The notes beneath the pieces are model-generated. The model worked only from the letters and a program-made list of their open reading frames with translations, made no database searches and was not told where the DNA came from. The translations under genes were made by a program, and so were the position numbers. This document shows positions 51,701-57,451 of a stretch of 64,000 nt of DNA, in pieces. The DNA lies in contig NC_045138.2 of assembly GCF_008831285.2 (NCBI RefSeq), forward strand, positions 28,677,934-28,741,933, in the 5' to 3' direction. Position 1 is the first letter of the stretch. Every line of letters starts with the position of its first letter. The stretch is from Nymphaea colorata. Taxonomy: Eukaryota; Streptophyta; Magnoliopsida; Nymphaeales; Nymphaeaceae.

Positions 51701-54511
51701 AAGAAATGTATCACAAGTGATATTGTCAAAAGATATTGCAAGATTGTTTACTGATGATCAAAGATGAACGAATTACCTGGCAACCAAGATCACCAAGCCC
51801 CAGAATACGCTCACCATCAGTAACAACAATGACCTGAATGCCTTTCTCAGGCCAGTTTTTCAGCACCTCAAGAATTTTTCCCCTGCAAAATTGATATCAT
51901 TTCATGAGCTGATGGACTCAAGTTCTCAATAATGAGTGGAAAAAAAAAAAAGCAAAGGGATGATGATGACGTGAAACAAAATAGCAATGAGAAGAAAACC
52001 AGATAAAAAAATTTCCAAAATCAACAGTAATGGACACTGCCAGAAAAAGAAAGATGGAACGTCATACTTCTCATTCAAGCTTATGTAAAGACCCTGTGGA
52101 CGCCTGAAGATGGTTCCATACTTTTGGCAAGCTTCACCTACTGTGGGAGTGTAAACAATTGGGAGCAACTCTTCAACATTATCTATCATAAGCTTGTAGA
52201 ATAGCCTTTCATTCCTCTCCTGTTCATTATTCAAAGGTGCTGAATTGGAAAACGGCTGATGATGGGACAACCCAAAATTCTATCTCAAAATGCACAAGTT
52301 CCTGTTATGCTCAATAGGCACAGATGTAATACCTGAAGCTCCATCAAAGCCATGTATCTTTGCAGTGGAACTTGATATTGACGAAGGTTTTGCATCAGTT
52401 TCTTCTCCTGTAAGAAACAGCTTAGAGTAAGAGAATGCAGCTAATATCAACCTGGAAATGAACAAGCCAACTAGGCACTGTGACACTGCTTCTTGTTGTC
52501 CGACCAATTACTGAGAATTAGACCACTGTGTATTAATTGAAGATATTATCAAAGATGCAGGAATAACGCACCTGAAGCTCCTGGGTGAGACAAGCTGGGG
52601 GCAGAAGCCCTCGCAAATAGTGTGCATCTCTCTCTTTCGCAGAAAAAGCAAGCCCTTTGTTGTATTTGGGATCTCTCAACAGAGAGTAGCCACTGGCGAA
52701 CATAAGAAAACGTGTATGAGAAAATGATGTAATAATGAATAAAATATTCCTAAACATACCAAATTTGCCCTAGTACCCCCTGATCCAACTACAGAGAAAA
52801 TAATCAAGTGACTGTTCAACATAAACTGATGAATAGTTTCAGTTAAGATTCAACATGATTACATAAACCAATCTCCATAATGCACTGCTAATTAACTCAT
52901 TTAATAGTTGTTGAAACATGGACTAATTCAGATCAAAACCAAGTGACACAAGCTATGGTTGTCACAGGTCACAGTTAGCAAGTAATTGACAAGAGAAAAG
53001 TAGGGAAGGACCTTGACATCATTCAACTCATACCAATTTAGTATTGAAGCTGGTTAGTGTTTGGTTTAATTCAGACCAAAACTATAAATCTTTTAACAGG
53101 ATCCATGTGCAAATTGCAGCCGAAGACCAGAGAAAACAATGTCAAAAGAGTTATCGGATAGCTAACTAATGGTCGCCATTTCATGGATACGTAGAGACAA
53201 AGCAAAAAAAACCACAAAATCCTTTTAGATGAGATTCCTTTCAGTCCCAAGATGATGTTGCACAAGTTGTAAATTAATTAGCTTCTGACCTCAAGTACTA
53301 ACATAACATAAGAAGACCAGGCAAAGTAATTGCTCGGGCAAAAAAAAAAAGCCTCAGCTAGTCAACGGAATCAAGGTTACGCTCAAAAATATAATAACAA
53401 TATTTAGAATTACTTTGCTTTGCAAACACAGGGACTAGCGTACCACATGAAAGTATTCAGTGAGTTCCCAATAAAAGTAAATTAATTTAGCCAACCAACC
53501 GAAAGCTGAAGATCAAGGTATAAAACAAGTCGGTCCTGGCCATCCTGGACCCCGAAAGGGAAACAAAATAAGGAGAATTGCTTCCCGCTCCTTGGCTAAG
53601 ATTCTATAAAAGATAAAATATGCTCTAAAGGTATACCAAATTCGGAAACGAGAGAGAGACGCTAAAACTTCATTTAACAGGCAAATCGATTTCTGAAAAG
53701 AGCGCCCAAAGGGACGCTTTAAAGCCTTGGGAACTTCGACCAAGAAATTGCTTAAGCTTTCACGTTTCAAAAAATTTGCAGACATCCTTCAGAGAAAATT
53801 TTTTCCGACTAAACAAGGCCGAGCTCACGTTTCTACAAATACTTATAAGATCAAACCCCCAGATACCAAGCAAACCAGTAAATTTGAGAAAAAAATAAGG
53901 CATTTTTTTTCTTCTTTCCCTGAAGAGCTTGCCAGATCCCCATGTATCTGAGAATGAAGGAACTTCAGCCAAATCAGCGCGAAAAAATAACTGCTCTGGC
54001 AATGCTTCTCAGTCAAGAAACACATCTGTAAGATGAGATCATAAAATCATATTCAAAAGAGCTTAAACCTGACGCTGAAGCACCGGTTTAGATGGAGAAG
54101 GTAATAGAAAATAGGAAAGAGTAAAAACTAGAACGCGATTTCTAAGTAACTTCCAAAATGATCCAAAAATGGACTAAAGAAATCTGCCGAGAACCCCATT
54201 ACTTGTTAGAGAGATTCGACGTCACATACTCCTCACCAAAATCAATGGCAACAGCAAAAAAAGAAAAAACAAATTAAGCACTTCATTAGCAGATTCCGCA
54301 GTGTAATGACTAGGAAAAGAAAAAGAAAAGGAAGAGAGAGCATCGATTCCACGTCTCACCTGGCGACGGAGACGGTCCAGGGAGTCACGAGCTGGTCTTC
54401 CGTGGCGCGATCCTCGCCGTAGACGTCCCCGACGCCGCCACCGACGGTCGCCCTGGCATCCATGTCCAGCACCGAAGCACCTTCCCTGATCTCCTTAAGC
54501 GTGCTCTCCAT
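48701..54511 (-). CDS. NADP-ME: NADP-dependent malic enzyme
   Basis: Eighteen exons in minus order: 54511-54360, 52692-52572, 52407-52333, 52219-52068, 51882-51777, 51647-51582, 51477-51382, 51276-51205, 51102-51019, 50882-50784, 50545-50498, 50398-50345, 50220-50032, 49946-49869, 49762-49688, 49457-49367, 49223-49095 and 48789-48701. The sum is 1776 nt, 591 residues, the usual size of cytosolic plant NADP-ME. Visible landmarks: [17 protein letters not shown] (51-67), [43 protein letters not shown] with the catalytic Lys region, [24 protein letters not shown], the nucleotide-binding [48 protein letters not shown], and the C-terminus [11 protein letters not shown]. The enzyme oxidatively decarboxylates malate to pyruvate, making NADPH. 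No catalytic motif is missing. The start at 54511 is the first ATG after the proximal TATA box and has A at -3 and G at +4. Confidence 0.97.
51302..51380. repeat. GA-rich microsatellite in intron 7 of the malic enzyme gene
   Basis: A GACAGA then GAGAGA tract broken by a run of G; on the coding strand it forms a CT tract just upstream of exon 8. Confidence 0.9.
52693..54359 (-). other. Large first intron of the malic enzyme gene (1.67 kb)
   Basis: Bounded by GCCAG|GTGAG and CGCCAG|TGG. It is much longer than the other introns (about 70-250 bp). Long first introns often carry regulatory sequence, but no element is recognised here. Open frames near 53.5-54.0 kb are not genes. Confidence 0.75.
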
Positions 54512-54670
54512 CGTCTCCGACGACCTCACCCCCGACGATCTGCACAGAAGAGAACCCCTCCGCTGCCTCTGCTCCCTCGCCGGCAAGCAGCAAGGAGAAA
54601 ACAAGCACGAAGAAAAGGACGCTGCCGACGAGGACGAGGACGCGCTAGCGATCGATGAGCACACGCAACT
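54512..54670 (-). CDS. Possible plastid transit-peptide coding segment of the malic enzyme gene
   Basis: 53 codons directly upstream of, and in frame with, the ATG at 54511; a TAG lies just upstream in the intron-like sequence. The translation starts SCVCSSIASASSSSSAASFS and continues through SCLFSPCCLPAREQRQRRGS to RSSGVRSSET. It is rich in Ser, Ala, Cys and Arg with only two acidic residues, the composition of a stromal targeting sequence. It has no ATG of its own (a GTG lies at 54664). It is preceded at 54672-54671 by an AG after a T-rich tract, a good splice acceptor. It would be translated only if joined to the upstream exon at 55007-55033. Confidence 0.5.
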
Positions 54671-54806
54671 CTAATACGTGTAAACAGAACCAAAAGGCAC
54701 GTTCACAACAAAAACAAACACAGAAGGAAAGACTAAGAAAAGGAAGCTCAGTCCTCAGGAAGAAAGATCACACAGGCACGAGATGGAAAGCGCGAAGCTC
54801 CATTCA

Positions 54807-55241: not shown

Positions 55242-55248
55242 CTTTATA
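55242..55248 (-). promoter_or_regulatory. Distal TATA box upstream of the malic enzyme gene
   Basis: TATAAAG in the context CACCTATAAAGGGG on the minus strand, about 435 bp upstream of the proximal box. It predicts a leader of about 180 nt, GC-rich with a GA tract, before the ATG at 55033. Confidence 0.55.
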
Positions 55249-57451
55249 GGTGTCCGAAGGGGTATTCACATCTACCGAAAAGCCCACATTGTTTCCGGTC
55301 AAGGACAAAAGGGGGTCCGTATTTTTAGGAGAAAAACGAATGGTTGGTGACCAGGGGCACCAGTAGGTCGCTCTGTAGGCTTTCTCCTACACTTCGGTCA
55401 TGTTTACAGGCAAACCACTTAGGTTATTAGTTATTTACCTGGATCCACTTGATTTTTTACTAATTACTTTCATCGCCGTTTTTTCGCCTCAATTTTCCCT
55501 TTTCCACGAAAAGCAAGGTTTGGCTTTCGGATCACCCTTTTAGCTGTGCATCTTGAAAGCGAAGTGCACAATGAAAGGGGCGACTTTGCTGAAAGCTGCC
55601 CAACTTAATAACAGCAAGCTTCTGAGGTCCTCATAAAATGGATTTTATGAAAATAAATAACTAAATAAAATATGCTCAAAGCATATGCTTAGTTGTGGCT
55701 TCTTAAAAACAATAAATGGACGGGCTCGCAACAATAACATATTGTTATAGTTCCCAGATCACCACTGAGGATTTAAATATCTTTAGTGACACTCTATGCA
55801 GGCTAAGCTTTAAGTTTACAATCTAAAATTTAAAGGTACGTTTACTAACTTTGTCGCGCCAGGATTATACATTTAATTTCAATTGCAATAACTTTACAAG
55901 AAAAGAAATAAGAAACGTATAAGAAGAATATTATGTTTCTTGGAAGATGTATTGTTAACAAACATGATCTACGTTCTACTATAATTATAGATGTTTTCAG
56001 ATTCATCAACCAAAAGTTGGGCATAATCATATTATATCTTCTAAGACAAAAACATTTAGTTGTTTGATCAAGAAAACAATGTTCTTCTTATAAAATGTTC
56101 TCTCAAAAAGAGGGAGCATGAAAGTTTTTGAGTGGCTTTTGTCAATTTTTTGATATGCTTACCGAGTGGGTGACGTGAGAGGGCAACAGTCGAGCCTTCC
56201 CCAGATGGCGCAAGGGCTTTGAAATGACTGGAATACCCTCTGTATTTAATCTTGTCCTACATTATTATTTTAGTGACCAACATTTGGATCCTTGCTTTTT
56301 TTTATTAACTTTTCTCCCCCGGAAGGCAAGCTGAGTTCGACAGAAGAAACCTTACCGGTTCATTGATCAAGAGATGCGGTAGATTATACAATTGCAACAG
56401 GTAAACCCAGATTGCGTCCCCAATTTAATCGTTTATAGATCCTCCTAGCCTCTTTATTGTGTAACAAATTCTAAACATGTTATATTGACAGCCTAAATCA
56501 CATGGGTAAGTAAGGTCTACTTATCCATGTCGTCATGTTCGCACGCACGGTAAAAACGAGTACTTGAATACATTTGGGTACCTTTTAAAACGAAACTGAT
56601 GTAAATTATTGATTTTATTTGATTTAGCATGTTTTTAACTTAGTTTTTATTACATTTTTGCAAATGTACTGTTCAAAACATGTGTGTGTACATATATATA
56701 GACACACGGTTTGTTATACCCCTAATACTTACAATTTTTTAAAATTGTCATGTCCATAATACATGTATGTTCATATCCATACCTGAATCTACTTAGTTTA
56801 TAGCAAAAATTTTTCACTACTTTATGAACAAGTTGATTGGCATGCAACTTTCACACACAAACATAGTTGCAAGAACACACACACACATGCAAGAAAGTTT
56901 CAAAGGCTTTTAGTTCATTCTATTATGAAACACAAGTCTGGTTTAACCAATGCAATTATGACTCAATAGGGAGGTGGTGCGGGTTCAGGCTGACCGATAG
57001 GATGAAAATAATATACTAATTGACGTGCATTGCATTGAAAGTTTTCTATCAAACACTTAGCGGCATGCCTCTGTAACACCTCATAAGTTTAGTTTTGTAT
57101 CGCTCATGAGTGGGTCGAATTGTTATAGCTTCTGCTTAAAAAATGATTACTTTGAACCTACATAACGCACTTTTCATATTAAAATAGCTTTTGCGGCTTC
57201 TTAAAAATAAAATAATAATTTAGAATAGAATCAAAATTTGTTGCAATATGAGCTATTAGTTTTTCATTATTTAATTACACTTATTAAAGCTGTTTATTAA
57301 CTAATTTGGAGTAGGCCACTTCGGGAGTCTCCTGGGTAAAATGGTCCTGGAGAGAGTTGAAAGCCGTTTCTGTGACTCGTGGGCGTTCCCGTAATTTACC
57401 TCATTGTGTAGAACCAATTGCTGACGTTCAGGTCCAATGTTTGGGGTGGGA

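Follow-up and report, generated by a model that had tools for sequence, protein, structure and literature searches.

Sequence layout of a Nymphaea colorata NADP-malic enzyme gene and its duplicate suggests organelle-targeted and cytosolic forms from two promoters

Can one gene for NADP-malic enzyme (NADP-ME) supply both an organelle and the cytosol, through two promoters? The question is raised by a locus of Nymphaea colorata lying in a stretch of 64,000 nucleotides (hereafter the window; C1:28677934-28741933 of a 407.8-Mb assembly), where the coding region of an NADP-ME gene on the minus strand is preceded by two TATA boxes. The origin described for plastid NADP-ME is a cytosolic gene that duplicated, one copy then acquiring a transit peptide (PMC13100509, PMC5958461, PMC2718502), and a dual role by promoter choice contrasts with this usual account, in which the job is split between separate genes. 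The layout of the window gene, together with that of a duplicate elsewhere in the genome, makes it probable that one NADP-ME gene gives rise, from two promoters, to an organelle-targeted enzyme, most likely plastidic, and to a cytosolic one.

The sequence layout upstream of the enzyme, exact to the base and wholly on the minus strand, begins with a distal TATA box, TATAAAG (55242..55248), followed by a distal leader (55034..55215, its start site estimated from the box); a scripted check found no ATG on the minus strand from 55218 to the distal start at 55033. This ATG opens a coding exon of nine codons, MLGLDRALQ (55007..55033), ending at CAG|GTAAAT. A first intron of 336 bases (54671..55006, GTAAAT...TTAG) is proposed from predicted splice sites, with its donor GTAAAT starting at 55006 and its acceptor AG at 54672-54671, and contains the putative proximal promoter with a second TATA box, TATAAAT (54807..54813). 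The 53 codons that follow (54512..54670) are open and in frame with the ATG at 54511, and are predicted to be coding in the spliced distal form and leader in the proximal form. The proximal leader (54512..54783, start site also estimated) is free of ATGs up to the internal codon (54509..54511) at which translation of the cytosolic form would begin; the context of this codon is GAGACGATGG in the window and GCCGCGATGG in the duplicate. Up to the enzyme start, the predicted spliced distal message contains the ATG at 55033, then that at 54511, and no others. The nearest upstream in-frame stop for the extension, TAG at 54673-54671, shares its AG with the proposed acceptor, and the extension would therefore reach protein only by splicing to the distal exon.

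The resulting 62-residue extension contains 18 Ser, 7 Arg and three acidic residues, with Ser, Thr and Ala together making up 40%; positions 10-38 are without a charged residue, a single Arg falls within the first 16 positions, and the end is Arg-rich. Chloroplast transit peptides follow a three-part composition pattern, and the predicted presequence appears to have this make-up. A first-pass annotation, made from the letters alone, had claimed the two minus-strand TATA boxes, the ATG-free proximal leader, the distal ATG with nine codons running into the donor GTAAAT, the AG followed by 53 in-frame codons with agreeing splice phases, and the Ser/Ala/Arg-rich, nearly acid-free character of the extension, and all of these were reproduced, the stated coordinates exactly.

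Downstream of this region, the enzyme model is intact from 54511 to 48701 (48701..54511, minus strand; 18 coding exons, 591 residues). It matches the Pfam families PF00390 (malic, 265.6 bits) and PF03949 (Malic_M, 324.8 bits), and the four PDB sequences nearest to it, each a malic enzyme by name, reach 1055, 1014, 1011 and 1002 bits, with the fifth, 1gq2, at 635 bits; 5ou5 and 6c7n, among these matches, we take to be the maize and sorghum enzymes. The nearest relatives of the encoded protein are plant NADP-ME, and NADP dependence is predicted. Plant NADP-ME genes are described as having 19 coding exons (PMC5958461), a number that the extended window form shares, which may be coincidence.

What makes the evidence from layout strong is that the whole arrangement recurs in a second complete NADP-ME gene on contig C6 (locus L009), which encodes 591 residues and is 86.5% identical over the shared body. 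There, a distal TATA box, TATAAAA, lies at the matching place (L009 7289), and an ATG in strong context (GCCACCATGC, L009 7145) opens a nine-codon exon, MLALSRVIR (L009 7145 to 7119), of the same length and phase as that of the window. The GT donor GTAAAA (L009 7118) opens a proposed first intron of 352 bases (predicted junction L009 7119 to 6766), within which the proximal box TATAAAT (L009 6923-6917) is identical to its window counterpart. Behind an AG, a Ser-rich extension of 50 in-frame codons runs from L009 6766 to the internal ATG at 6616. The sequence is MLALSRVIRGCVCSSVVSESSSSSSSSSSSFPCCVSAREQRQRRIPLLCRSSGLKSSAA in C6 and MLGLDRALQSCVCSSIASASSSSSAASFSSCLFSPCCLPAREQRQRRGSLLCRSSGVRSSET in the window, with the blocks CVCSS, AREQRQRR and LLCRSSG common to both. 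A genome protein match on C6 to residues 9-113 of the extended form is 71% identical and stop-free through the extension, and a genome search with window positions 54700-54511 hit two loci, with the C6 alignment running from query base 34 onward, which lies three bases into the predicted exon. As a separate observation on this gene, the intron after its second coding exon opens with GC (GCACGT) at L009 4966, not with GT.

Conservation was assessed between the window gene and this one within-genome duplicate, by aligning segments against shuffled controls. The extension has a z of 8.8 and the first enzyme exon one of 10.9, whereas the distal upstream region (2.1), the distal leader (1.5), the intron up to the proximal TATA box (2.0) and the proximal leader (2.0) are far lower, with the distal exon, of 27 bases, at 3.0; the values for 16 of the 17 enzyme introns (intron 1 being left out for its length) span -1.3 to 4.7, with two exceeding 4. 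Over 150 compared bases the extension is 78% identical to that of C6, and neither frameshifts nor stops interrupt the counterpart of 54512-54670 in the duplicate. The dual targeting of this NADP-ME proposed in the first-pass annotation is thus supported both by the C6 layout and by an extension that has stayed conserved while in the leader, the promoter regions and most introns similarity has fallen almost to that of shuffled sequence.

The substitutions themselves favor a coding reading of the extension. By BLOSUM score its frame 0 is the best of six (one antisense frame is also stop-free), and the observed score was reached in 0.14% of 10,000 random placements of the substitutions (p 0.0014). 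The 50 codons compared in the extension give a dS of 0.47 and a dN of 0.19 (ratio 0.41), and the 591 codons of the enzyme body a dS of 0.82 and a dN of 0.070 (ratio 0.085); such fast yet constrained change would be as expected for a targeting peptide.

On the preferred reading, a transcript from the distal promoter would start near 55215, with a first exon carrying the ATG and nine codons, and splicing of this exon from 55007 to 54670 would yield a 62-residue Ser/Arg-rich targeting peptide directing the enzyme to an organelle, most likely the plastid. The proximal promoter, within the first intron, would start transcription near 54780, so that the same 53 codons become untranslated leader and translation from 54511 gives the cytosolic enzyme; the cytosolic form could additionally arise from the distal message through leaky scanning. 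The firing of both promoters, the junction 55007-54670, import and the plastid destination are what we infer from this arrangement.

How much of this could arise by chance was also estimated. Shuffling of the extension left its frame stop-free in 27% of trials for the window (159 bases) and in 29% for C6, and the open frame was accordingly rejected as stand-alone evidence; the window sequence by itself is thus weak evidence. TATAAA occurs in the window at 0.77 per kb per strand, and the minus strand from 54300 to 56300 holds just the two proposed boxes. A splice matrix built from 34 introns of both NADP-ME genes scores the window donor at 9.4 bits, the best GT of the region (minimum 4.2 and median 7.7 among the 34 known donors). 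The proposed window acceptor follows a T-rich tract, the 60 bases before it contain no further AG, and it is the furthest upstream of five in-frame stop-free AGs; each gene has five such AGs, of which the proposed acceptor alone sits behind a T-rich tract. Two higher-scoring window AGs, with exon starts at 54539 (7.6) and 54947 (7.0), were set aside as out of frame, being missing from the list of in-frame AGs, and C6 lacks an AG at the position matching exon start 54539.

Several observations weigh against the two-promoter reading. The conservation argument depends on a single duplicate. In both genes the proposed acceptor falls outside the eight best AGs and scores lower than any of the 34 known acceptors (minimum 3.7), and the C6 donor, though the best GT of its region, scores 3.6, under all 34 known donors. 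Amino-acid identity of the extension, 34 of 50 residues against a mean of 29.9, is borderline (p 0.05) in a permutation test where 32% of the random substitution placements left the frame stop-free. The nine distal codons have a dN/dS of 1.0, giving no protein-level constraint, and are too few to judge. Around the proximal TATA box, ungapped windows of 20 flanking bases match at 4-8 positions, so the recurrence is confined to the box and does not extend to its flanks. Finally, the proximal leader of the C6 gene holds two upstream ATGs, at L009 6865 and 6785, one opening ME-stop and the other a 14-codon frame.

Some of these points lend themselves to other explanations. Were the enzyme cytosolic only, the distal promoter, if used, would add an intron to the leader, with chance and conserved untranslated sequence accounting for the open frame; the proportion of stop-free shuffles (27-29%), the weak acceptor and the identity permutation of just 0.05 all agree with this. 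It is nevertheless decidedly improbable given that C6 repeats the nine-codon exon, its phase and the in-frame extension, that substitutions in the extension favor frame 0, and that conservation is much stronger there than in the adjoining leader. One promoter could instead serve two proteins, the distal message giving the organelle form from its first ATG and the cytosolic form through leaky scanning to 54511, with the proximal TATA box incidental. The second ATG of the spliced distal message is indeed exactly 54511, and the context of the window distal ATG is TCCATCATGC; but TATAAAT is present at the matching place in C6, where the distal ATG stands in a strong context, and we regard this explanation as unlikely.

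The opposite case, an organelle enzyme only, with a real distal promoter and an unused internal start, is compatible with the layout and with the upstream ATGs in the C6 proximal leader. It would leave the plant without a cytosolic NADP-ME, since two complete genes were seen and both have this layout, and the window proximal leader is free of ATGs; it appears highly improbable, the least credible of the alternatives. A different doubt concerns destination: two promoters may operate while the mitochondrion, either by itself or together with the plastid, is where the extension sends the enzyme. The C6 N-terminus, MLALSRVIR, with two Arg in nine residues, would suit this, whereas the window form has one Arg in its first 16 residues, an uncharged stretch at positions 10-38 and 40% Ser, Thr and Ala, and according to a review the compartments of plant NADP-ME are the cytosol and the plastid, the mitochondrial enzyme being NAD-ME (PMC5958461); a mitochondrial or mixed destination is therefore judged very unlikely.

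Whether another gene could provide either form was addressed by a genome protein search with the extended form, in which all 47 first-look candidates were scored, giving 45 matches. Near-complete NADP-ME exon sets were found on C1 and C6 only, and the N-terminal exon was matched only there; searches of the assembly revealed neither a third complete NADP-ME gene nor a third gene with the N-terminal exon. A plastid form, if made, should therefore come from the C1 and C6 genes. Both carry the extension and the internal start, and no separate cytosolic gene was seen, malic-enzyme exons on C12 standing outside this count; these exons are 41-63% identical and probably belong to a mitochondrial NAD-ME. 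Apart from matches on two small contigs, described next, the other malic-enzyme matches in the genome are fragments within repeats. When viral contigs were searched with an alignment of the N-terminal 230 residues of the window form and 227 of the C6 form, 35 pattern matches came up, and no relative was among them.

Two side observations may be added. Malic-enzyme matches on two small contigs distant from the plant genes (C23:6008-6613 and C123:30840-31490), 32-38% identical to the plant enzyme, are possibly bacterial contamination of the assembly. About 1 kb of the NADP-ME gene (window 50213-51213), introns included, is found at at least six other places, 89-95% identical (G000 coordinates C9:11039540-11040489, C12:379880-380831, C4:19456142-19456717, C2:3194765-3195340, C1:1173613-1173729 and C1:1348018-1348126). 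The C9 and C12 copies lie in a 4.4-kb repeat that is 97.9% identical between both, and the fragment looks like a gene piece captured by a mobile element.

The age of the layout can be estimated from the surroundings of the two genes. In the window and in the 69 kb of C6 compared with it, the gene order is shared: two genes for RING-finger proteins, then NADP-ME, then one lying at window 63.0-64.0 kb. Of the RING genes, the second is inverted between the two regions. The RING genes, of the RING-H2 type and related to each other, lie at window 14141-14590(+) and 29080-29889(-), with counterparts near C6 8.0895 and 8.1129 Mb. Because of this shared gene order and the body dS of 0.82, the C1 and C6 regions look like a duplicated chromosome segment. 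A duplication peak near Ks 0.9 has been described for Nymphaea colorata (PMC7015852), with which the body dS fits, and the layout would then be older than that duplication. Since then, the two copies may have begun to differ in emphasis, and the C6 gene, with its two upstream ATGs, may make less cytosolic enzyme.

Dual targeting through twin promoters is already known from other plant genes. The maize PPDK gene and a rice dual promoter combine, in one gene, an upstream transit-peptide exon with a separately controlled cytosolic transcript (PMC2718502), and the Nymphaea gene would resemble them in its predicted upstream targeting exon and predicted separate cytosolic transcript; the enzyme is different, and the PPDK transcripts are reported whereas those of NADP-ME are predicted from sequence. 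In Arabidopsis, phytochrome-controlled alternative promoters of the glycerate kinase gene GLYK yield chloroplast and cytosolic forms from the first and second ATG (PMC10970406). Alternative promoters of one gene, two ATGs and two compartments would be common to both cases; light control is reported for GLYK, and in NADP-ME an intron that holds the putative second promoter would interrupt the transit-peptide frame. Maize BAM7/BAM2 has a second start inside intron 1, and the dual gene is proposed to have later divided into separate genes (PMC10400028). The position of the second start and the proposed dual-gene history recall what is predicted for the NADP-ME genes, but the internal start of BAM7 leads to the plastid form and its long form is nuclear, whereas the long form of NADP-ME would be organellar.

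Dedicated plastid NADP-ME genes of grasses and other plants share the enzyme family and the compartments, and differ in being separate genes, where the C1 and C6 genes each seem to encode both forms. In some eudicots the plastid NADP-ME starts with M-[F/I]-S-L-N, and a likeness of this to MLGLD and MLALS is a lead only. Literature searches on malic enzyme, alternative promoters and PPDK contained no dual-promoter NADP-ME among the titles and abstracts listed, by which its absence from print is unproven; among those matches the NADP-ME example appears to be new.

The arrangement also matters for C4 photosynthesis, which recruited plastid NADP-ME (PMC5958461, PMC13100509, PMC2718502). Two genes that each appear to encode both forms, and that have persisted from an old duplication, suggest a different route to the compartmented enzymes, with the dual gene first and specialized genes later, as has been proposed for BAM2/BAM7 (PMC10400028). 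It is tentatively conceivable, though we would not expect it, that the twin-promoter NADP-ME represents the ancestral angiosperm state, in which case a dual gene would have existed before the C1/C6 duplication, and the separate genes found elsewhere would come from the division of such a gene and not from later gain of a transit peptide. The layout also raises the question of whether the compartment of the enzyme may be set by light or by organ identity via promoter choice, as in glycerate kinase (PMC10970406).

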